Part shown: positions 2,169 through 42,200 of the stretch, piece after piece
Layout of the letters: each line of letters opens with the position of its first letter
Numbering within the stretch: the first letter of the stretch is position 1
Source: Candidatus Poribacteria bacterium
Lineage (GTDB): Bacteria; Poribacteria; WGA-4E; GCA-2687025
DNA: 44,665 nucleotides
Direction: 5' to 3'
Assembly (NCBI GenBank): GCA_016866785.1
Contig: VGLH01000014.1
Coordinates: forward strand, 1-44,665
Position numbers and translations under genes: made by a program
Notes under the pieces: generated by a model
The model's input: only the letters and a program-made list of their open reading frames with translations
Database searches by the model: none
Told to the model about the DNA's origin: nothing

Positions 2169-3032
2169 GCCTGGCTCATCCGCTACACAACCCGAAGCGA
2201 CGACCGGAGCCCGACGCTCGCCATCGGTGGCGCAGTCGATGCGGGCACGCCGGGTGAGTACACCATCATCTACACAGCAACGGACGCTAGCGGCAACTCG
2301 TCGACTGAGACGCGCACGGTAATCGTCAAGGACACCATCGCGCCGTCCATCACGGCATCGCTGACGCCGACGATCAACCCAGCCGGTGAGCCCGCCAAGA
2401 AGGGAGCCGTGCCCGCCGGAGGGAAGAAGTCCGACGGCAGCAACCCGAACGGATTCTTCCTCGTCCGCTACTTGGTCACCGACACGTGCAATGAGTCGCC
2501 GACCGTCTCGGCGACGATCGCCGGGTACGTCGTCGCTGACGGCGAGATGGTCAATGTCACCTACGACCCGAAGGCTCTCGAGCCGACGACCAACCTGATG
2601 GGTCCGACGAGGATCAAGCACATCGTCAGCCCAGCCCTTCCCGCGCTGGTCGTCGGCGCGCTGGACGCCAGCGGGAACGTGGCGACGAAGGAGGTCGCCG
2701 CGAGCGTGCCTCCGGCGGTTGCCGTCCGTCCTGCGCCCATCTTCACGCGCCTCATGGCGAACGACCCCAACCCCTTCAACCCGGAGACGTGGATTCCCTT
2801 CGAGCTGAAGGAAGGCTCCGCCGTCACGGTGAGCGTCTACGACGTGGCGGGTTCCCTGGTGCGCAAGCTCGACCTGGGCTACCGCGAGCCGGGCTACTAC
2901 ACGTCGCGTGACGAGGCGGCGTACTGAGACGGTCGGAACGAGCTCGGGGAGAGGGTCGCGAGCGGGGTGTACGTCTACGAGCTCCGCGCGGGCAGCTTCC
3001 GCGAGACGCGCCGGATGGTCATTCACAAGTAA
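2169..3032 (+). pseudogene. Decayed secreted surface protein (Ig-like domain plus type IX-like sorting domain)
   Basis: One reading frame is open from 2169 to 2925 and again from 2928 to the TAA at 3030-3032, but has no plausible start near its upstream end, where the preceding stop is at 2166. The frame first encodes an Ig-like segment of DUF5011 or HYR type ([15 protein letters not shown]), then a middle segment, then [11 protein letters not shown] and a sorting domain. In that domain a TGA (2925-2927) replaces the tryptophan codon seen in the giant protein at 42.6 kb (AARWDG there, AAY-stop-DG here); the sequence after it, ending RRMVIHK, is intact. The gene has therefore lost its 5' part and acquired a nonsense codon. 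A GTG at 2409 could start a 172-residue product without the end of the sorting domain, but this is unlikely to be functional. Confidence 0.75.
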
Positions 3033-3081: not shown

Positions 3082-3298
3082 CTCATTCCCTATGGCTGAT
3101 TTCTGCCCATTGCCGCCGCGCAATCGATCGGACCGTGGACAGCAGGCGTTGGCACGCGATGGTTGCCTCGCCAGATGGAACCTGCGCCTACGGCAGCGTG
3201 AACGTCTGCCAAAGTGACGTCCGCTCCCAAGACCACAGCCATCTCCCTGGCGCGCGTGCTTGACACATCCCCAACACGTCCCATAGCCCGATGAGCGC

Positions 3299-3537
3299 CA
3301 GGGCTGTTTCAAGAACGGACCGCCTGATCCCGAATCGGGTCCACCCAACGGGTCATTCCCGCGAGCTCCGCCTTCGCGGGGCCAGGAAGCGGGAATCCAG
3401 GACTCTGGGCTCCCGCTTTCGCGGGAGCGACGGGGCGGAAACGGTGGCTCCATGGACGGCTGGTGTCCCGTCGGAGCAGTGGACGTTCGTCTGGACCCCG
3501 CCGTGCGGGGTCCGAGGGGCTTCATGAAACAGCCCTG
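3299..3537 (+). mobile_element. Non-autonomous inverted-repeat element (MITE-like), copy 1
   Basis: The 239-bp element is bounded by CAGGGCTGTTTCAAGAA and, inverted, TTCATGAAACAGCCCTG; the two 17-bp ends differ at one base. It is flanked by a perfect 9-bp direct repeat GATGAGCGC at 3290-3298 and 3538-3546, the signature of a transposition event. It encodes no transposase. A nearly identical copy in opposite orientation lies at 27357-27549, flanked by a different 9-bp duplication. The middle (about 3390-3432) holds a palindromic module that also occurs alone at 5792-5850 and is missing from copy 2. An IS element with matching ends elsewhere in the genome presumably mobilises it. Confidence 0.88.
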
Positions 3538-3567
3538 GATGAGCGCTGCGTCGATTGACTCGCCCCC

Positions 3568-5704: not shown

Positions 5705-5731
5705 GTCGCTCCCGCGAGAGCCGGAGCCCAG
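5705..5731. repeat. Degenerate copy of the CTCCCGCGAAAGCGGGAG palindrome
   Basis: GTCGCTCCCGCGAGAGCCGGAGCC at this place resembles the left half of the double hairpin at 5792-5850 with two or three changes. It lies inside the open frame upstream of the HNH domain, consistent with repeat insertion ahead of that gene. Confidence 0.5.
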
Positions 5732-5791
5732 TGGTCAGTCAGTGTGGTACCCAGAGCTACTCGACGCCCCGAGCACCGGCGATCAGTGCTT

Positions 5792-5850
5792 GTCGCTCCC
5801 GCGAAAGCGGGAGCCTAGAGTCTCTGGATTCCCGCTTTCGCGGGAATGAC
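5792..5850. repeat. Double-hairpin palindromic repeat
   Basis: Two adjacent hairpins: GCTCCCGCGAAAGCGGGAGC and, after a 13-base spacer, ATTCCCGCTTTCGCGGGAAT, framed by GTC and GAC. About 43 bases match, in inverted orientation, the interior of the transposable element at 3299-3537. It sits between the convergent-side end of the formate dehydrogenase operon and the HNH gene. Confidence 0.75.
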
Positions 5851-5882
5851 GATTCCGAAAGCCCTGCGCGAAGGCCCATCGA

Positions 5883-5898
5883 GGTTATCGTCATAACC
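5883..5898 (-). terminator. Possible terminator of the formate dehydrogenase operon
   Basis: GGTTAT-CGTC-ATAACC forms a 6-bp stem with a 4-base loop, 15 bases after the stop codon of the catalytic subunit on the minus strand. There is no T-tract, so the assignment rests on position and symmetry alone. Confidence 0.35.
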
Positions 5899-5912
5899 AC
5901 CATGACAGACCA

Positions 5913-8684
5913 CTAGGAGGTATTGGGCGCGGGACGCTCGCGCGGGGCTCCCTGGGCGGACGGTTCGACGCGCACGGCGCAGATCTTGTACTCCGGGCAG
6001 CCCGTGAACTCGTCGGCGGCGCAGCTCACCAGCAGGTTCGTCCGCGATTCCGGGAAGTGGAAGGTCATGAACACGGTTCCCGGATTCGTCGCGCGGGTCA
6101 CTTCGAGACGCACATCGACGGAGCCCCGCCGCGACGTGACGCGCACGATGTCGCCGTGGTGGATCGACAGCCGCCGCGCGTCGCTCGGATGCATCCGCAG
6201 CGTCTCCTCCTTGGCGACGTCGAGCTGCACGATGTCCGTCCGGCGCGTCATCGTCCCCGCGTTGTAGTGGAAGAGCTGCCTGCCGGTCGTCAGCATCAGC
6301 GGATACTCGTCGTCCGGGAGCTCGCCGGGCTCTTGCCAGGGCGTCGGGGTGAGCCGAGCCTTGCCGCGCAGAAACTGCCCGCCCGTGTGGAGCATCTCGG
6401 TTCCCGGATGGTTCTCGTCGTAACAGGGCCACTGGAGGAACCCCGCTTCGTCGAGCCGCCGGTAGCTGACGCCGCCCCACTTGGCGTTCAGGGAGGCGAT
6501 CTCGTCCATGATGCGGCTCGGAACGATGGGCGTGCCGGGTCCGTTGTCGGCGGCGAGGTCGTGACCCATCTTCCGGGCGATGGCGTTGACGATGTCGCCG
6601 TCGGGCATCGCGCCGGGGAGCGGATCCATGGCGCGGCGGACGCGCTGGATGCGCCGATCGCTGTTGACGAAGGTTCCGTCCTTCTCCAGGAAGCTCGCCC
6701 CCGGCAGAACCACGTCGGCGAGCTCCGCCGTCGGGTTCATGAAGATCTCCTGAACGACGAGGAAGTCGAGCGATTCGAGCGCCCCGACGACGTGCGCCGT
6801 GTTGGGGTCCGACAACGCGATGTCCTCGGCGAGGATGTACATCGCCTTGAGCGTGCCCTCTTGGGCGGCGTCGAGCATGTCGGGGATGCGCAAGCCCTTG
6901 TTCGACGGCGGCTCGACGCCCCAGACCTTCAGGTGCGCCGCGCGCGCGATGGGGTCGGACACTGGGCGGTAGTCCGTGAACACGTCCGGTAGCGCGCCGA
7001 CGTCCGCCGCGCCCTGGACGTTGTTCTGCCCTCGGATCGGGCTGGCTCCCGTGCCGGGTCTGCCGACGTTCGCCGTGAGAACCGCCATGTTGATGAGCCC
7101 GAACGCCGCGTTGGAACCGTGTCCCGCCTCGGTGACGCCCAAACCCCAGAGCGTCTGCGCCGCGCGCGCGTTCCCGTAGAGTCGCGCCGCCGCCCGGATC
7201 GTGTCGGCGGGAACGCCGCTCAGCTCGGACGCCCATTCCGGCGTGCAGTCAACAAGTTCCGCCTGGAGCTCTTCGAAGCCCTCGGTGTGGCCCGCGACGA
7301 AGCCCGTGTCGATGTAGCCTTCGTCGATCAGCACGCGGATCATCGCGTTGATGACGGCGACGTTGGAACCGGGACGCAGCGCGACGTGGATATCCGCCAG
7401 CCGCGCGAGCTCCGTGTTCCTCGGATCGAGGACGATCAGCTTGCAGCCCTTGAGCGCCGCCTGTCGGATGCGCGCTCCGAAGACCGGATGCGCCTCCGTC
7501 GGGTTCGCGCCGACAATCAGCAGCAGGTCGGAACGCTCCACGTCCTGGAAGCTGCTGGTTCCCGCGCCGGTTCCCAAGGCGTTCGCCAGCGCGTACGCCG
7601 ACGGCGAGTGGCACACGCGCGAGCAGTTGTCGATGGAGTTGGTCCCCATGACGACCCGCGCGAACTTCTGCATCAGATAGTTCTCTTCGTTCGTGCAGCG
7701 CGACGAACTGATGACCCCGAAGGCGTCGGGCCCGTGCTCCTCGCGGGTCTGCGAGAGACGCGACGCGATCAGGTCGAGCGCCTCGTCCCACGACGCCTCG
7801 CGGAACGTCCCGTCCGGTTGACGGATGAGCGGCGACGTGAGGCGATCCTGTGAGCGCGCGTACTGGTGGGCGAATCTGCCCTTGACGCAGGCGTGACCTC
7901 GGTTCGCGGAACCGGCGAGGTCCGGCTCGATCTGGATGATCCGCTCGTCCTTGATGTGCGCCACGAGGGAACATCCGACGCCGCAGTAGGCGCACGTCGT
8001 CTTGACCGAGCGGTCGGGCAAGCCGTGTTCCCGCGTGCCGGGCTCCTCCAGCGCCGCGACGGGGCACTCGAAGACGCACTGACCGCAGCTCGCGCAGTCC
8101 GCCTCCTCCATGCCCGTGTCGTTGCCTGCGATGACGCGGACATCGTAGCCGCGTCCCGCCATGCCGAGGATGAAGGATCCCTGCACCTCGTCGCACGCGC
8201 GGACGCACCGGGCGCAGCCGATGCACTTCTCCATCTCCAGCTTGATGAAGGGATGGGAGTCGTCGCGCGGCGGCGTGTGGGTTCGGGGGTTCTCGTAGCG
8301 CGGCACGCGGAGCCCCACTTCGGACGCGAGCGATTGGAGCTCGCACCGCCCGTTCGCCGCGCAGGAGAGGCATTCCAGCGGGTGATCGCTGACAATCAGC
8401 TCGACGATGTTCCGCCGCAGCCGCGACAGGAACGGCGATCGCGTGCGGTAGCTCGCGTCGGGCGTCACGACGGTGTGACACGCCGCGACGGGCTTCCTGC
8501 CATCGTGCTCGACCATGCAGACGCGGCACGCGCCGTAGGGCTTGAGCCGGTCCGAGTAGCAGAGCGTCGGAACCTCTCGCCCGACGGACCGCGCCGCCGC
8601 GAGGATCGTCGCGTCCGGCGCGACGCGCGTCTGGATGCCGTCGATGGTGACCGTGACCGTCGCACTGCCCGGAAGCGGGTTCAC
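5913..8684 (-). CDS. fdsA: NAD-dependent formate dehydrogenase, catalytic (alpha) subunit
   Basis: The 923-residue molybdenum- or tungsten-pterin oxidoreductase oxidises formate to CO2. In order it shows a NuoG-like N-terminus with a [2Fe-2S] set (TLCYSD, GACRVC, AACHT, residues about 40-70), the His-Cys3 cluster (DHPLECLSCAANGRC), two ferredoxin-type [4Fe-4S] sets (CIGCARC, CASCGQC), then CAYCGVGC for the catalytic-domain cluster. The metal ligand is Cys358 in SRVCHSP, so this is a cysteine, not selenocysteine, enzyme. GQNNVQGAADVGALP is typical of formate dehydrogenases. The C-terminal MopB-binding barrel is present. The GTG start has GAGGGAGG 5 bases upstream and follows the NuoE-NuoF fusion gene by 79 bases. 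No cofactor-insertion gene (fdhD) is in the window. The subunit layout fits soluble FDS-type enzymes. Confidence 0.9.
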   Translation of the reverse strand: MNPLPGSATVTVTIDGIQTRVAPDATILAAARSVGREVPTLCYSDRLKPYGACRVCMVEHDGRKPVAACHTVVTPDASYRTRSPFLSRLRRNIVELIVSDHPLECLSCAANGRCELQSLASEVGLRVPRYENPRTHTPPRDDSHPFIKLEMEKCIGCARCVRACDEVQGSFILGMAGRGYDVRVIAGNDTGMEEADCASCGQCVFECPVAALEEPGTREHGLPDRSVKTTCAYCGVGCSLVAHIKDERIIQIEPDLAGSANRGHACVKGRFAHQYARSQDRLTSPLIRQPDGTFREASWDEALDLIASRLSQTREEHGPDAFGVISSSRCTNEENYLMQKFARVVMGTNSIDNCSRVCHSPSAYALANALGTGAGTSSFQDVERSDLLLIVGANPTEAHPVFGARIRQAALKGCKLIVLDPRNTELARLADIHVALRPGSNVAVINAMIRVLIDEGYIDTGFVAGHTEGFEELQAELVDCTPEWASELSGVPADTIRAAARLYGNARAAQTLWGLGVTEAGHGSNAAFGLINMAVLTANVGRPGTGASPIRGQNNVQGAADVGALPDVFTDYRPVSDPIARAAHLKVWGVEPPSNKGLRIPDMLDAAQEGTLKAMYILAEDIALSDPNTAHVVGALESLDFLVVQEIFMNPTAELADVVLPGASFLEKDGTFVNSDRRIQRVRRAMDPLPGAMPDGDIVNAIARKMGHDLAADNGPGTPIVPSRIMDEIASLNAKWGGVSYRRLDEAGFLQWPCYDENHPGTEMLHTGGQFLRGKARLTPTPWQEPGELPDDEYPLMLTTGRQLFHYNAGTMTRRTDIVQLDVAKEETLRMHPSDARRLSIHHGDIVRVTSRRGSVDVRLEVTRATNPGTVFMTFHFPESRTNLLVSCAADEFTGCPEYKICAVRVEPSAQGAPRERPAPNTS

Positions 8685-30250: not shown

Positions 30251-33200
30251 ATGCTAGGCACGGCAGGCACGGCGGGAAAAGGATCGCTCGCGTTCCAGTG
30301 TGTGGTCGGGTTGATCGTCGTCGCATTCGGGCTGGCGCTGGCAAGCCCAGCGCTCGCGACGCCTGCCGTGGCAATCGTCGCGCCCTACAATGGTCAGCAA
30401 CTCGTCGGCGTGACGAGCACAAATCTCGATGTCGCCATCACCGACCACACGACCGGCTGGAAGTACCAGCTCGCCGACATGACCGCGGCGGGCGACGTGG
30501 TGGCGTCGGGCTCCGTCCTGTCGGGAACGCGGACGACGTTGTCCGGGCTGGTCGCCGGGCGCTCGTACACGGCGACGGTGACGCTGAGGGATGGGGAAGG
30601 CTTGACGGTCCCCGGCATCAGCGCCGTGTCGATGTTCACCGTCGAGGCGGCGTCCAGCGGGTTCGTCCTGACGGGCAACTACGTGCAGGTCGGGATCAAC
30701 AAAGACGGCTCCCTGATCGACGAGAACTCGCACATCAGCTTCCGCTATCAGCCGGCGGGAACAGGCGTCTTCACGTCGCGCCCTGACTACTTCTACCCCG
30801 GCTCGCCTTTGGAGGCGTACGCCGTCAAGGTGGATTCGACGACAACGCGCGCCGAGGGCCCGCTCAGCACGACGATTCCCGGCGTCCTGCGGAACACGAG
30901 CGCCGGAGCCCTTCGCCGCGCGGAGTACACGGCGACGATCGCCCCCGGCATCCTCATCCAGCAGACCATCTCGTTCGACGGGGGTTCCACCGCCGCTCGG
31001 TTCGACGTGTTCATTCGCAACATCGACCGAGTGCCGCACAACGTGCGCTACCTGCGGAACATGGACCCCGATCAAGGGGTGACCTACGGGTCCAGCTTCA
31101 GCACGTACAACGATATTGTCGCGGTTCCGCAAGGCAAGCTCGTGACCGCCGGAACGACGTCCTGGGGCTGGTTCGGACTGGGCGCGACGGGACTGGGTGA
31201 TGCGGTCGCCTTCGAAGTCGCCAGCTACCAAGTCGATGTCGAATCCTCCGGACTGTTCACGTACGACCCGGATCATGTGCTAACCGCTCCGAACGACCCG
31301 AATGGGACGCTGAGCGACGTCGGGATCAACATCGCGTTCGACCTGGGAACGCTGCTCCCCGGTCAGGGCAAGTCCTTCACGTTCTACATGATCGGCGGCA
31401 ACAGCAAGGACGAAGTCGTCACGACGTTCGACGCGCTGGGAACCGTCGTCTACGCGCCGATCACGCTGGGCGGGCTTGGGATGAACACGAGCGCGCTCAC
31501 GCACCTCGCCCAGGAGGCGGTGCATGCGGCGGTCGCCGCGGCGCCCCTTTCGGAGACGGACCGTTCGCTGCTGGCGTCGGCGCTGGAGAGCCATCTGCTC
31601 GTGCCGGTGATTCCCGGTTATCCTGCGGCTCCGGCGATCTATCCGTCCTATGGAAATGAGGTCGTTCGGGACAACTTTGGGAACCCCCTGACGATTCAGC
31701 GGGGCGACTTCACGACGGACCTGAGCTTCCGCGCAGGGGGAGTGGGCAGAGTTCTCGGTGCGCCGAAGCTGGGACTGGTCGCCGGAACCGGGGCGGATAT
31801 CGCGTCGGTGAAGTTCGAGCTCTCGACGCCGACGGCGACTCATATCGGCGTCAGCGCGTCGGAGGTCACGGCTACGGCGCCGGCTTCCTATAGGTTCGTC
31901 TTCGACGAGGACGCGGCGCTGGAGTTCTTGGGTCATTGGCCCGGCACGGTCCTTCCCGACGGAACGTTCGATGCCGACCTGGTGACCGCGTACTACGCTC
32001 AAGTGGCTTCGCCTCCGGCGGACGCTCGGACGCTCACGTATTCGTCGGTTCCCCTGAGTTACACCGGCAGCGGCGGCGTCTGGGCGGCGGAAGAGCCCGT
32101 CGCGCTCATGCCGGGGATGCACACGGTCTACTACTTCGTCGCCCATCTGAAGGCTCCCATCTCGACGCCGACAGGTCCCGTCTCCACGTGGGCGCTGCCC
32201 GATCCCTACAACATGCAGTGGGTGAACCGGGGCGCGATGGAGAACCTGACGGCTGCCGTAGCGCGCTACGGCTTGGGGCTGGACGACGGCGACGTGGACC
32301 CGCTGGATGCGCGGCGTTTCGCGTCCATCGTGGCGCACAGCCTGGTGAAGAGCGGAAACGTCGCGTTGGCATCGATGTTCGCGTTGCCGCCGACGGGTAC
32401 TACGCGGACTTGGTCGGGCGAGTTCCCGCTGACCTCGCTGCTCGGGCTGTCCGAGGGAGTCCACATGGTGCGGGCGCTGGGCTTCAACGTTGACGGCAAG
32501 CTCATCGCGCGCTCGACCGACATCCCACTGGTGATGGATCGGGCGTACTGGCGCACGGTGAACCTGTCGACGATCAGCGAGTCGCTCATCGGATTTGGCG
32601 CTAAGCCGACGCAGGCGCTGTCGGGTGTCACCGTCGACGACAAGAGCGCGGTGGTCGCCGGAGCGACGGTCGTCGTGCATGAAGGCGGTCTGACGGGCCC
32701 CGTGGTCGACACGGTGATCTCCGGCGCGGAGGGCGGGTTCACGATCGAGCTGGAAGTGGGCGAATACACAATCGTGGCGTCTGCGCCGCTCCATGCCGCC
32801 GCCGTGGCGGTTGTTCCCATCGTCGCGGGCACGTCTCCGGCGACACTGCGGCTGGTCCTGTCGACGAATCTCCCTCCGACCATCGGGACGATTGCGCCTG
32901 TAACCACTCGTCGGAACCGTCCCGTGACGGTTCCACTCCCCATCTCGGACGCTGAGAGCGATCCGATCAACGTCACCGCCGAGCCGGGGTCCGGACTGAG
33001 TGTACGGATTTCCGAGACGACGACGGGATTCTACGCGACGGTAACGCCCTCCGTCGGCTTTCTCGGCGAGACGTCGTTCACCGTGGTTGCGAGCGACGCG
33101 AAGGGCTCCAGTTCGCGCAGCGTTCCGGTGACCGTGCTGGAGAATCGGCTGCCAATACTGGAACCGATCGCCAACCTGATCCTCGATGAAGGACATGGGG

Positions 33201-36200
33201 CGGTCGTTCCGTTGCACGCTGCCGATCCGGACGGGGAACCCGTGACGTTAAGCGCGCGGAGCTCGGACCCCCGTGTCAAGGCGGTACCGGAGTTCTCGGC
33301 GACAGACGGTCACCAACTGGTCATCATCCCAGACTCGACCTTCAACACGCTGGAAACGGGTCCGGTCGAGATCGTCGTGAGCGCCACGGACTTCGTCGAT
33401 GGAGGCATTTTGCCGTTCTTCGCGGTCGGTGGACACGTGGTCAGCGAAGGCGCGCTGCCCTCCACAGCGGAGGTGGATGTCACGGTCCTCGGTATGGGAA
33501 CCGTCGTCACGGCTCCCATCGTCGATGGAGCGTTCGCCGCGACGTTCGGCGGTTCCTTGGGTGTGCCGGTCGGAGCGCTCATCCTCATCGAGGTCTTTGA
33601 AGACGCCGCTTCGACGACGCCCATCGGCACGGTGGTCCGCCAGATGACACCGGCGGACGCGGACGCGGCGAGTCTAATTACCGAAGCGATCGTCGGGCGC
33701 TTCGATCCGGTTCCGGAGCTAGCGTCGACGACGACGTTCCACGTCACGATCAAGCCGCGGGAGGTAGCGCCCGTCGCCACCCCCGCCGAATTCACGATCA
33801 ACGAGGACGAGACGCTGGAGCTCGTGCTGGAGGCGTCCGATCTGAACGCCGAGGACGTCCTGACGTTTCGTATCGTCATCCCGCCGGCTCACGGAACGCT
33901 GACCGGCGTAGGCGCGTCGCTCGTCTACACGTCGGAGAAGGACTACTACGGCGACGATGCCTTCACGTTCGTCGCCAACGACGGGACGTTCGACAGCGAA
34001 CCGGCGCTGGTCAAGATCGTTATCCGCCCGGTGAACGACCGTCCGTTCTTCCTTCCGGTCGCGGAGCGTCCCATCGAGCTGCTGTCGCTCACGGTTCAGG
34101 AGGGACAGCGGCTCATCGGCGTGCCGATCCCCGTCGAAGACGTGGACGACGAGGAGCTCATCTTCCTGCTCACGTCGATACCGACAAGCGGGAATAACGT
34201 CACCTTCAACCACGAGCTCGAATCGTTCAACTACGACGCGCGGCTGGGCTTCACGGGTCTGGACGTGTTCACGATCGCCGCATCGGACGGCGAGTTGGAT
34301 ACCGACCCGCTGGTGCCGTTCGAGATCGCCATCAAAGTGACCGTCGATCCGACGCGCCCCGTAGCAGCGGCGGTTCCGCCGGTCACGACGCCGCGCGCGA
34401 AGCCGGTTGATATCACGCTTGCGGCGACTCCGGTGGGCGTTCCCGTGACGTTCGTCGTCAAGAAGACGCCTGCGAACGGAACCGTCGCCATCAAGGGGAA
34501 CGTCGCGACCTACACGCCGAAGCGCGACTTCGTCGGCGAGGACTCGTTTGACTTCGTTGCGGCGAACGGACCGCTGGAATCGGCTGCGGTCACGGCGAAG
34601 ATCACCGTGACGCCCGCCGACGATCCGACCGTCCTGAACCCGGCGGCGACCTTGCCGCGCGACCAGCGCATCTCGAACACCAGCGATCCCGTGGTCACCG
34701 AACTCGGCGGACCGACGCCGTTGTTCATCGACCCCGATTCCGACGTCGTCCTGAACGTCGCATCGTCGGACTCGAAGATCGTGGCGGCGGCTCTGGATGG
34801 GACGCGGCTAGCCATCACGCCCGGTAAACCCGGCGTCGCCACGATCACCATCGGTGCCAAGACCGCGACGGCGACCGTCACGTTCAACGTCGAGGTCGTC
34901 GCGGGGGCCATCCGCAACACGCCGCCCACCGTGGCGCGCATCCCGGCGCAGACCTTCTTCGCCGGAACGCCTAACGTCTTCTCCATCTCCGCGACCGACC
35001 GCGACGGGGACAAGCTCGTCTACGGCGCTGGCAAGATCACCGAAACCACGACACCCGCGAAGGGCGACGAACCGCTCTCGGTGAACGTCGAAGCCGCGAC
35101 GGGCAAAGTGACGATGAACGTGTCCGCGCAGGTCTCGCGCGACCGCCGGTTCAGCGTCATCCTCACCGCCTCCGACGGCGTCAACGAGCCGGTGACTGCC
35201 GAAGTCGCCGTGCGCGTCCAGCGATTGAATCGCCTACCGGTCGTCGTCGTCGCCGAGACCGCCGCCGCCAAGGTGGGCGAAGCGGTCGCCATCGCCGTGC
35301 GCGCGACGGACCCCGACGCCGGCTCGACGCTCACGTTCAGCGTCTCGTCGTCGGAGCGCGATCCGTCCGTTCTCAGCGCGATCCGCGACTTCCTGACAGC
35401 GACCGCCGCTAAGGACGGAGACGCGTTCATCCAGACGCTGCGGTTCACGCCTGCGGCGCGGCTCGACGGAACCCTCGTCGCCTTCCGCTGGACGGTCTCC
35501 GATGGCGAGCTCGCCACCGGCGCGACGACGAACGTCACCGTCGGCGAGGTGAAGAACCTGCCGCCCGTGGTGGAAGCCATCGCCGCGCAGAACGTCAAGG
35601 AAGGCGAGACCTGGTCGTTTGCCGTCACCGCGAGCGACCCGGAGAAGCAGCCGCTGTCCTTCACCGCCGAGGGGCTTCCCAAACCGGCGAGTCTGGACTC
35701 AAAGACCGGCGCGTTCCTCTGGAAGGACATCCCATACGACGCGTCGGGTTCGTTCGTGATTCGCCTCAACGTGAGCGACGGTGATAAGGTGACGTCCGTC
35801 GGGTTTACCCTGGTCGTCGCCGATGTGAACCGTCCGCCGGTCTTCGACGACCTGAAGGCGGCGATCACGATGCAGAAGGGCGTCGTCAACCGTCTTTCCG
35901 TGTCCGGCAGCGATCCCGACGGCGGCGACGTGGTTCTGGAGCTCGTCGGGCTCCCGTCCTACGCGCGCGTCGTCTCGACGCGGTCGGGACGCAGTCCACG
36001 GCAGAGCCTGGAGCTCCTGCCTCCGACCGATGCGGAGAACTTCTCGTTCATCGCGCGCCTGACCGACTCCGCGCGCGCCGTGACGGAAGTCACCGTCGCC
36101 GTGACGCTCACCGACGCTCCCAACCGCGCGCCGACGATCCGCCCGATCCTTCCCGTCGCGGTGGACGAGGGCGTGCAAGCCGTCGTCACCGTCGTCGCCG

Positions 36201-39200
36201 AGGACCCGGACGGCGATCCGCTGACGCTCACAGCGACGCCGCTGCCGGAGGGCGCGACGTTCGAGAAGGGCACCCTGACCTGGACGCCGGGTCCCAGAAC
36301 CGCCGCCAAGTCGCCGTACCTCATCACGATCAAAGCCGACGACGGCAAGGACGGCATCATGGAGCGCACGGCGCGCATCGACGTCCGTGTCGGTGCGAAC
36401 CTGCCTCCGCGTCTCGCCGCGATTCCGCCGCAGAGGGTTCTCGAAGGCGCCGAGCTCGCTCTGAACCTCCTCGAAGGAGCCGTCGATCCCAACGGCGACC
36501 CGATGACGGTCACCTACGAGACGACGTTCCCTGCGGATCGACTCAGCTACGACAGCGCCAAGAGCATCCTCACGCTCCGTCCCGTCGCCGGCGACGCTGG
36601 CGTCTATCCGGTGCGTCTGCGCGTGTCCGACGGCAGGGGCGGCGAGACCGCTCGCGCGGTCGTGGTCATGGTGCTCCCGGCGGAGGGAGCCGGCGCGGGA
36701 ACGTTCGCGATTCTCGCCGCCGTAGCTGACCCGACGGTCGGCACGTCCGCCGACACCTACTTCGTCAGCGCGATCGTCCAGCACGCCGAGGGCGCGCCGC
36801 CGACTTCCGTGACCGTCGTCGTCAGCGGCACGGGCGACGGCGCGAAGCAGACGGTCGAGATGACCAAAGCCGCCGACGTGAGCCCCACGCTCTCGCGCTA
36901 CTCGGCGGATCTCCGTCTGCCGGTCGGGAACTTCACGCTCGAAGTCACCGCAGCGCTGGGCGAGGCGACGCAGACGCGGTCGGGCGGAACCATCCAGGTT
37001 CTCCCAGAGACGATCGAGATTCGGAACCTGCGGGTGACGGGTCTCTCCGCGGACGGCGTGCTGAACGGCGATGCCATCATCGAGTACGATCTGTTCAACC
37101 CGAACCCCGGCGAGCCGGTCGGCGTCGTCGTGGGATACCGGATTCCCGGGCAGGCCTGGCAGCCCGCGACCGTCCGAGGTTCCATGACGGCGCAACTTCC
37201 CGGTCCCCAGGTGCTGATTTGGTCGTCGGAGACGGACCTGCCGCTGGCGGACGGTCAGGCGGTCGCCATCGCCGTCCAGGCGCCGGGGGCGCTGCGAACC
37301 ATCTCGGCGTCGTTCCTGGTGGACAACGAGGCTCCGCCGCTGACGCTGGACCCGATCGCCTCGCCTTCGTCGGTGAGGGCGCTGACGATCACCGGCGTTA
37401 CCGAGCGGGATGCGGTCGTGTCGTTCCGGATCGACGGAAGGGACGCGGGCGGAGCCACTCCGCGCGGCGACGGCAGCTTCCGGTTCGTGACCGCAGAGCT
37501 GACCGATGGCGACCATGAGATCGTCGCGGTCGCCCGCGAAGGCGCTCTGGAAGGGACGCCGGTCACGGCGCGCGTCCTCGTCGACGCGACGCCGCCGGTA
37601 GTCACCATCGTGACGCCGCCGGAAGGAGCGCGCGAAGTCGCGACGCTGACGCCGATGTTGCGTGCGACGGCGACATCGTCGGGCGGCATCAGCCGCGTCG
37701 AGATGCGCCTGAACGGCGTTCCCGTGTCGGCGACGTTCGACGGCACGACGGGCGAAGCCACCTACACGCCGACGGAACCACTCGTCCAGCGACGTCCGTA
37801 CCTGATGACGGTCGAGGCGACGGGCAGCAACGGACTCGTCGGAACCGGCGCTCGGCTCTTCACGCCGAATGTGACGGCGGCGGATACGGTCGCCCCCACT
37901 GCCGGAACGCTGGAACCCGCGAACGGCTCCACTGTCGTGACGAGCCGTCCGGCGATCAGCGCGACGCTCTCCGACGCGGAGACGGGCATCGATGCCGCGT
38001 CCATCGCTCTCACGATCGACGATGCGCCAGCCGTTGTGAACGTCTCGCCGCTGGACGAACGGAGCGTTCTCGTTACGGTCACGGGCGAGTTGACGCTTGC
38101 CGACGGCGTCCACAAGGTCGCCGCGACGTTCAAGGACAAGGCGACCAACAGCGGCTCCGCGTCCTGGTCGTTCACGGTAGCGACGGCTCCGCCTGCGGTT
38201 CCTACGGTCGTGTTGGCGTCCACGTCGACGAACACGTCGCCGTACACCGTCACCGGAACGGCGGGCGCGGACATCGACGTATCCGTCGTGGCGAACGGGA
38301 CGATCCGCGGGACGACGAAGACGGATGCCAAGGGCAAGTGGAACCTCGCCGTGACGTTCCGCACGCCGGGAGAGAAGCTCGTCCAGGCGTTCGCGACGAA
38401 CGCGGCGGGTCTCTCGTCGGCGCTGTCGTCGCCGCAGGCGCTCCTCTATGACACGCAGGCTCCGCGCATCGTCTTGGCGACGCCGGTACTCGGCACGCCC
38501 ACCGGCAACCTGAAACCCCGATTCGAGGGAGCGGTCACGGACGCCCTGAGCGGCGTCGATGCCGCCTCGGTGAAGCTGGAGATCGCAGGCGCTGCCGTGA
38601 CGGCGACGTTCGACGCCGCTCTCGGCAGGCTCGTCTACGATCCGCCGACGGCGTTCGCCACCGGCACGTCAGTCTCCATCAAGATCACGGCGACGGACAA
38701 GGCGGGGAACAGCGGCGAGCTCGCGGGAACCATCCCATTCGACGCGCGTCTCGCCGACTCGACACCGCCCGCCATCACGTCCGCGCGGATCAACGGAACT
38801 GCCCTCGTCGCCGGGGGCAGCGTGACGGTCGCTGGCGGCCCCTCGACGATCCGGTTCTTCGTGACCGACGAGAACTCCGGCGTCGCGAGCGTGACCGGCA
38901 CGCTGGACGGCTCCGATGCGACGTTCGCCCTCGCCGACGGCGTCGCGACGCTCTCGCAGACCTTCGCCGCCGGGAGCCATACGCTGCTCGTCCAGGCGAC
39001 AGACGCGGCGAGAAACCAGACGCCGATCGTCCAGTACGACTTCGTCGTGGACGATTCGACGCCCGCGCCGACGGTGCGCGTCATCCCCGGCGGGGGCGAA
39101 TCGCGGACGACGGGCAGCGCGCGCGCGGCTGAAGAGGCGATCGTCGGGACGGGGCTGGAGCGCGGCGCGGCGGTGAGAGTGCTCCTCAACGGTCTCCCCG

Positions 39201-42200
39201 TCGAGGCGCGGGTCACCGGCACGACGTTCCGCAGCAGCGCCGTCGTCCTGAATGAGGGCGACAACACGATCGTCGTGACGGTTCAGGATGGGGTGGGGAA
39301 CACGGCGACGACGACGCTGACGGTTCGACGCGACGCGACGCCGCCGACGGTGACGTTCTTGGAACCCGTTCCCGGCGCGTTCGTCGGCGGCAATCAGACG
39401 CGCCTGCGCGTCGGGTTCGCCGACGCCAGCGGGATCGACCCGTCGAGCGTCCGCGTGACGTTGGACGGCGCGCTCCTGGCAGTTACCGCCGAGGGAACCG
39501 GCTTCACGCACTCGCTGGCGGGACCGCTCGCCGGGTCGGACACGCTGCTTCCGGCGCGGCACGACCTTGTCGTGACGGTGTCCGATACGTCTGGGAACCA
39601 GGCGACAGCGTCGAACCGGTTCTACGTCGATGCCTCTGCGCCGCTGGTCGAGGGCTTGAGCCCGCGTCCCGACGAAGTCATCCGCAACACCGAGCCGACG
39701 ATCTCCGCGACGATCCTGGAAGCGAACCCGGATCCGAGAGGGCTCGTGGTGCGCTTCGGACCGTCGGGCGGGACGCTCGAAGACGTTACGGCGAGCGTGA
39801 CGTACAGCGTCGTGTCGGGTCAGGTGACCTACGCGCCGCTGGCGCTGACGAACAGGACGAGCTACACGGTCAGCATCGACGCGAAGGACGCCGCCGGGAA
39901 CGCCGCGCCGACGACCACGTGGACGTTCACCGTGGACACGTCGGCGACGGACCGCACGCCGCCGACGATCACGATCACGTTCCCGAGGCCCGATTCGTCC
40001 ATCAGCGACACCGGGTTGGACAGCCTGAACTTCTCGATTGGCGACGGCTCGCCGCTGGATCCGAGGAACATCTTCCTGTTCCTGAACGATCCGACGGGCG
40101 GCAGGCCGCTGTCGCTGGCGGGACTGATCAGCACCGGCAGCGCAGCGTTCAACCGCGAGACGGGTGAAGTCCAGTTGATGGGCCGCCGGCTCTTCCTGCC
40201 GCTGCAGACGACGCGCGGCGGGTTCAGCCTCGATCCGCTGGAGCTGTCGGCGCTCGAACGCTCTCTGGGCGGCGGCGGCGCATCGTTCGATCCGTTGGAG
40301 CTGAACGCCCTCGAGCGGTCGCTGGGAAGCGGGACGACGGGATCGTTCGACCCGTTGGAGCTGAACGCGCTCGAGCGCTCCCTGACATCGACGACGGGCG
40401 CGCTGGGCGTCGGCACGAACACGATCGGGATCCAGGTCGCAGACGACTCGGGGAACGTGTCGTTCGTCGAGTGGCCCTTCACCGTGTCGCTCCAAGCGCC
40501 GGCGGCTCCGACGTTCGACGCCCTGCCCAGCCCGACGAACCAGGGAACCATCTCCGTCAAGGGACGCATTCCCGATATCACGGGGCCGCTTCCGATGACG
40601 GTGTCTCTGTCGGTGAACGGCGTTGGCGCGGGGTCCGCGCAGGTGACGGATGCCTCCGGCGTGTATGAGGTGAAGAACGTCATCCTCCGCGCTGGGACGA
40701 ACCGGCTCACGGCGACGGCGCAGGACAGCGCCGGCAACCTGAGTCAGGTATCCAACGTGGCGAGCATCGTCCTCGACCAGACGCTGCCGACGATCACCGT
40801 GGACCCGATCGCGTCGGTGTCGGCGAGCGCATCGCTCCGCGTGAAGGGCAGCATCACGGACAACGTGACGAACGCGCTGAAGTCGGCGGCGGTCGTCGTC
40901 AACGGCGTCGAGACGGCGCTTTCGACGGTTCAGGGGGCGTTCGACCGGTCGGTGACGCTGCGCGACGGCGCGAACACGGTCGTCGTCAAGGCGTCCGATG
41001 CAGCGGGGAACGCGACGTCCAGCGCGACGATCAACGTGACGCTCTCCGGCGCGGCTCCGAAGTCGGCTCCGTCGCTTCCGTTCGTCCGTCCGACGGCGGA
41101 TAGCAGAGGCGTGCGGCTCGACTGGAGCGCCGATCCGAACGCGGCGTCTTACGCGGTCTTCCGGTCGCCCAACGCCATCGCCAACGCGAGCGGCCTGACG
41201 CCGCTGGCTCCGTCCGTCGCGGCCGTGTCCTACACGGACACGACGATCACGGCGGGTAGCACGGTTCACTACGGGCTCGTCTCGGTGAACGTCGCCGGGG
41301 TGAGCGATCCGACCGTCGTCTCGCCCGATCTGAACGTCGCGCTCATCAAGGGCACGGGCGGAACCGCGAGCCTGTCGGATGGCACGCGGCTGGTCGTCCC
41401 GAGCCGGGGGTTGTTCAGCAACATCCTGCTCGCCGGGACGGTGCAGCTTACCCAGCCGTCAGGTCTGCCGGCGCTGGCAGGAGCCGTCGCCGGGTCGGCG
41501 CGGGGCGTCGTTGTGCGCAACGCCGCCGGCGAGCTCATCGAGTCGTTCAACCAGCCCGCGACGCTGACGCTGCCGGTTCCGACCGGCATGTCGATTACGG
41601 CGGACTCGCCGCGTGTCCATCAGCTCGTCGGCGGAACGTGGCGTCAGCTCGACGCTCGCGCGAGCGAGACGACGCGGACGGTGACGCTGTCGGTCTCCGG
41701 TTCGGCGACGTTCCAGTTCAGCGCTGTCTCGGCGACGCCGTGGGACGCCAACGGCGACGGCACGGTGGACATTATCGACCTGGTGAGCGTGGCTCGCCGG
41801 TTCGGTGAATCTGGAGCCGGGCTCGCCGAAGATGTGACGGGCGACGGCGTTGTCGATATCGCGGACCTGGTGACGGTTGGACGGCACTTCGGCGAATCGA
41901 CGCGCTCAGCAGCGCCGTCGCTCGCCGCGTCGTCCGACGGGCCCGTGCGCGTCTCGATGCGCGTCGCGGCGCTGGGCGACGAGCGCTACGAGGTTCGTCT
42001 GAGCGCCGAATCGTCGGTGGCGCTGGGCGGGTTCCAGTTCCGTGCCGAATCGTCCGATACGCGTGTGAGCATCGAGGAGGTGGAGGATTCCGCCATCTTC
42101 GGCGAGCGGGCGTTCTGGACGCCCGCGCGGGTGACGGCGACCGATGCGCTTGTCGCGTCGGCGCGTCTCGACCTGAACGACGGGAGCGTGTCCGACGAGC

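Follow-up and report, generated by a model that had tools for sequence, protein, structure and literature searches.

The repeats described here are best explained, with high confidence, as a family of MITEs that is moved in trans by an ISAs1-family transposase and carries a REP dimer at its center. We analyzed a 44,665-nucleotide stretch of DNA from a Candidatus Poribacteria bacterium (the window; contig VGLH01000014.1, positions 1 to 44,665), which contains two copies of the element, together with the draft genome to which it belongs (G000; 4.35 Mb in 291 contigs). This genome holds about 20 dispersed copies, some of them mixed, and an insertion sequence with an intact transposase; the ends of MITE and insertion sequence match, and their duplications are of the same length.

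Copy 1 spans positions 3299 to 3537 of the window, and across its 239 bp no transposase open reading frame is listed. Its left terminal inverted repeat (3299 to 3315, plus strand; CAGGGCTGTTTCAAGAA) pairs with the right one (3521 to 3537, minus strand; CAGGGCTGTTTCATGAA) at 16 of 17 positions, and the whole is flanked by a perfect 9-bp target-site duplication, GATGAGCGC, at 3290 to 3298 and 3538 to 3546 (9/9). Between the ends lie a 36-bp left arm common only to copies that we call type A (3316 to 3351), a central CGTC-type REP dimer made of two inverted palindromes (3352 to 3433), and an 87-bp type A right arm (3434 to 3520), all on the plus strand. Copy 2 (27357 to 27549, minus strand, 193 bp) is a type A element in the opposite orientation whose ends pair at 17 of 17 positions and whose duplication matches at 8 of 9 (CTCCTGAAT at 27348 to 27356 versus CTCCTGAAA at 27550 to 27558). 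It sits between a minus-strand gene without a Pfam match (26226 to 27293) and nusB. The two copies are 97.4% identical over 193 aligned bases, with copy 2 lacking 46 bp of the central REP dimer. An exact 12-bp end occurs four times in the window, each time as an end of copy 1 or copy 2. The RNA fold of the whole unit is predicted to be one long hairpin (z = −5.9), and because of this hairpin a transcribed unit could act as a terminator or stabilizer.

An earlier, sequence-only reading had proposed a 239-bp unit at this site with 17-bp inverted ends and a perfect 9-bp duplication, along with a near-identical second copy that was inverted and had its own 9-bp duplication. The first unit and its duplication were exactly as claimed, as were the location and orientation of the second. 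The 17-bp pairing is complete in copy 2 only, the second duplication carries one mismatch, and “near-identical” holds for the common parts but not for the missing center. The mobility had also been called recent, which is a relative term; type A copies are 92 to 98% identical among themselves. That reading did not mention that the element is modular, that its center is a REP dimer, or that some copies are chimeric.

The window has two other features of note. Just upstream of copy 1, a partly degraded open reading frame carries a duplicate (2755 to 3031, against 42381 to 42657; 71 to 84%) of the C-terminal FlgD-like end of a 4,135-amino-acid Ig/cadherin/dockerin surface protein (30251 to 42658). 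A beta/gamma-crystallin and GH43_C2 protein (42972 to 44324) has an evident paralogue that directly adjoins MITE copy C15a.

To collect family members, we ran DNA searches with three queries (copy 1, a copy of type B, and a divergent one) and also searched for the end pattern. The exact 12-bp end occurs 28 times genome-wide, compared to zero times for a reversed control pattern. Family elements are 185 to 259 bp long with 17-bp ends, under the ∼600-bp limit for MITEs; they are dispersed and transposase-less, have terminal inverted repeats and target-site duplications, and share their ends with an autonomous element. Type A comprises both window copies, C75, C54, C158, C129, C50, C26, and the half copy C40, while type B comprises C78, C164, C38, C23, C3, and C15b, with decayed pieces at C18 and C4. 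C203 and C15a are mixed (chimeric), and members at C4, C159, C51, and C198 have diverged. Duplications of 8, 9, or 10 bp, perfect or with one mismatch, flank 9 of the 17 copies measured, and the remaining 8 have no clean duplication. As a control, we paired left and right flanks taken from different copies, in 272 non-self combinations. A single pair matched, in which the left flank of C203 (3899 to 4139) and the right flank of C38 (14532 to 14769) are the same 9 bp, CTCCACAGT; this suggests either recombination between these two copies or misassembly. When the flanks of insertions were joined, no interrupted gene was found, and wherever a gene was recognizable the element was inserted upstream of the probable start (read by eye). 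A DNA-level search of the genomes of 58 relatives returned no copy, except for the REP part in G002, and a plasmid search returned no copy of the element. Two matches to the 17-bp end in IMG/VR are at the level expected by chance.

The same genome contains an intact insertion sequence of 1,213 bp (G000:C13:12324-13536) whose ends, CAGGGCTGTTTCACGAATG, face each other, agree with those of the MITE at 16 of 17 positions, and are flanked by a perfect 9-bp duplication, GTAACCAAC (9/9). Between these ends is a single open reading frame encoding a 383-amino-acid DDE transposase, which scores 216.6 bits on the NF033564 ISAs1 model (cutoff, 70) and passes both Pfam DDE_Tnp_1 and DDE_Tnp_1_assoc. Its triad, D120, D181, and E314, is invariant in an alignment with five relatives; a search of solved structures by sequence gave no match to the protein. 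Helpers of the IS4, IS1380, or IS1634 families were also tried and rejected, the transposase scoring far below the cutoffs of those family models. Pieces of the same insertion sequence, 5 to 9% diverged, are present on C129, C122, and C174, and in two cases the piece is at the end of its contig. The data support the earlier idea that a helper acting in trans moves a nonautonomous element. Of the checks suggested for it, both further copies with duplications (8 to 10 bp) and a transposase-bearing element with the same ends were found, although the candidates named for the helper, IS1, IS4, and IS256, were all wrong.

To see whether such ends are typical, we also examined the surroundings of ISAs1 genes in other genomes, looking for inverted ends bounded by an 8- to 10-bp duplication. 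About ten ISAs1 relatives have such ends with duplications of 9 to 10 bp, nearly all of them beginning CAGGG and two CAGAG. Among the 59 genomes in our search of relatives, 29 carry ISAs1 genes. The intact insertion sequence of G000 has CACGAA and nearly all MITE ends have CATGAA; given this difference, the true partner of the MITE may be a sister of the intact insertion sequence that is lost or unassembled. An ISAs1 end with CATGAA is present in a Ca. Poribacteria relative. Because the MITE and the insertion sequence have no more than ∼17 to 20 bp in common, at the ends, we rejected the possibility that the MITE arose from the insertion sequence simply by internal deletion. A divergent type E MITE at C159:∼2124-2364 (ends, CAATGCCATTTCATGAACG; 9/10 duplication) has ends similar to the ones next to the decayed ISAs1 genes that remain on C21 and C37, as if MITE ends and helper ends had diverged together.

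What types A and B have in common is limited to the ends and the CGTC-tagged REP dimer of ∼82 bp at the center. Identity between the two types is 94 to 100% in the ends and 95% in the center, compared to 50% and 41% in the arms. The center is a head-to-head dimer by the published definition of CGTC-tagged REPs, with the AT-rich start of a GC-rich stem (PMC3733652). Left REP edges in A and B are GGTC or TGTC, and the variants TGTC and CCTC have been reported for CGTC REPs (PMC3733652). The dimer is found, at least as a remnant, in every recognizable copy. A strict REP pattern, CGTCRYTCCCGC, matches 85 times in the genome and 9 times in the control. Of ∼71 REP loci collected, 22 are in ISAs1-type MITEs (some incomplete) and 5 are in a second MITE, type D; the same REP also stands alone at other genome sites. 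No dedicated REP transposase (RAYT) is evident in the genome, where one weak, partial Y1_Tnp match sits on a contig without a listed REP. Lengths of left arm, center, and right arm are 36/82/87 bp in type A, 38/82/86 bp in type B, and 36/80/87 bp in type E. The right arms of A and E are significantly alike (z = 6.2), and a comparison of A and B arms gave no significant likeness; a common ancestor of the A and B arms is suggested by their equal lengths only. Both chimeras are type B on the left (97%) and type A on the right (92 to 93%), switching within the REP, and C15a has its own 8/9 duplication. All shortened copies, copy 2 included, lost DNA within the REP.

The same REP is hosted by the ISAs1-type MITEs (A, B, and E), by the TA-flanked type D, and by type F in another genus. 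Type D has ends GTGGTCTGTCA, is ∼203 bp in full, and has a CGTC REP dimer at its center. Its copies are C20, C207, C57, and C119 in G000 and a degenerate element in the window (5731 to 5913, REP dimer at 5791 to 5851), which is unrelated to the MITE of copies 1 and 2. The better copies, C20 and C207, are flanked by TA on both sides, and our guess is that the target is the TA of IS630-type elements. In G002, which belongs to another genus of the same family, the short type F element (L082 to L088) has conserved arms with the same REP in the middle and ends around GTTGGGACAT, and L086 has an 8-bp direct repeat, CGTTTGGA, on either side, as judged by eye. L087 and L088 keep the type F left arm and REP and have a different right arm. 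It is possible, although we put this forward tentatively, that CGTC REP dimers spread as the fixed center of MITEs served by unrelated DDE transposases, with the common center letting arms recombine into new elements.

A 9-bp duplication is by itself compatible with IS1, IS4, and IS256, and so allows a helper of one of these types. Another DDE insertion sequence could then have moved the elements, the match to the ISAs1 ends, which differ from those of the MITE by one base, being a coincidence. We consider this very unlikely. Just one intact insertion sequence with these ends was recovered, and it encodes an ISAs1 transposase that is far below cutoff on the IS4 and IS1380 models, and CAGGG termini with 9- to 10-bp duplications recur among ISAs1 elements of unrelated genomes. 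Furthermore, the 17-bp end is essentially confined to G000: almost none of the other relatives searched has it, and its match in G003, a relative of the same family, flanks an ISAs1 gene. We give even less credence to the element being a REP palindrome composite (BIME) spread by REP-type processes or recombination, with incidental inverted repeats and duplications. The constant presence of the dimer or its remnant and the occurrence of the same REP alone elsewhere would fit such an origin, but the precise 17-bp ends and the 8- to 10-bp duplications surround the whole unit and not the REP, each type has conserved arms on either side of the REP, and the genome offers no clear RAYT transposase beyond the weak Y1_Tnp match.

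Doubt of another kind concerns the chimeras and the flank common to C203 and C38, which could be products of the draft assembly and not of cellular recombination. Repeats longer than short reads are often misjoined, C203 is close to one end of a 4,473-base contig, and its left flank is identical to the right flank of C38 over 9 bp. Because the draft genome is in 291 contigs, assembly errors may indeed account for some of the chimeric or reciprocal joins, such as C203/C38. We nonetheless regard misassembly as an improbable, if far from negligible, source of the pattern: C15a has a duplication of its own, G002 repeats the arrangement with one left arm and REP joined to two right arms, and the chimeras have diverged from both parents, which argues against a fresh misjoin.

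Returning to the ISAs1 model, we propose that the transposase would bind the 17-bp CAGGGCTGTTTCAYGAA ends in trans and pair them, and would then cut and insert the element, with the staggered cut giving the 8- to 10-bp duplication. Either the intact transposase or a decayed sister probably acted on the MITE, and copies may still be able to move; catalysis, current activity, and the route of recombination are all things that we infer from sequence. The REP dimer would be a passenger, and since the elements have it in common, it would promote recombination and slippage. Since the REP center is common to them, copies could recombine at it into the B/A chimeras and the shortened centers that we observed. 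Apparently the REP is carried along for free and allows halves to be exchanged between different elements.

The helper resembles other members of the ISAs1 family (NF033564; H-repeat relatives) in its CAGGG ends, 8- to 10-bp duplications, and DDE transposase with an N-terminal DDE_Tnp_1_assoc domain, whereas the window MITE has no transposase and only ∼17 bp per end in common with the insertion sequence. Like the bacterial MITEs Correia/NEMIS, RUP, ERIC, and Nezha, the element is short and noncoding, has terminal inverted repeats, target duplications, many copies, and a strong predicted hairpin; unlike these MITEs generally, its helper would be of the ISAs1 family. A limited search of the literature on both ISAs1 and MITEs found no ISAs1-driven MITE. 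QMITE2 of Coxiella burnetii, a 150- to 190-bp MITE with 7- to 11-nucleotide direct repeats and a GTAG REP inside, has been described as an IS1111 target (PMC5896051), so the combination of REP and MITE is not new in kind. In contrast to QMITE2, which is likewise short with direct repeats, the present element has a CGTC dimer, an identified helper, and arms swapped around the REP. CGTC-tagged REPs, including Neisseria dRS3, are GC-rich palindromes with AT at the stem base that form head-to-head dimers and have no dedicated transposase; no transposase link was reported, and palindromic surroundings were seen in only a few species (PMC3733652). Here, by contrast, the MITEs that enclose the REP have defined ends and duplications. 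As far as our limited literature search goes, three features may be new: that the helper is of the ISAs1 family, that a CGTC dimer forms the constant center, and that arms are exchanged around it.

On sequence evidence, then, the element is a MITE of the ordinary kind whose helper has been identified and whose REP passenger is unusual. An orphan MITE is tied to its helper within one uncultured genome, and the transposase-less CGTC REPs are given a concrete way to move, as passengers of MITEs. Di Nocera and colleagues suggested that CGTC REPs are possibly mobilized by a broad spectrum of transposases (PMC3733652), an idea that becomes directly testable by counting, per genome, the CGTC REPs that lie between recognizable MITE ends. 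The family also provides a case of small elements diversifying by arm swaps around a common palindrome.
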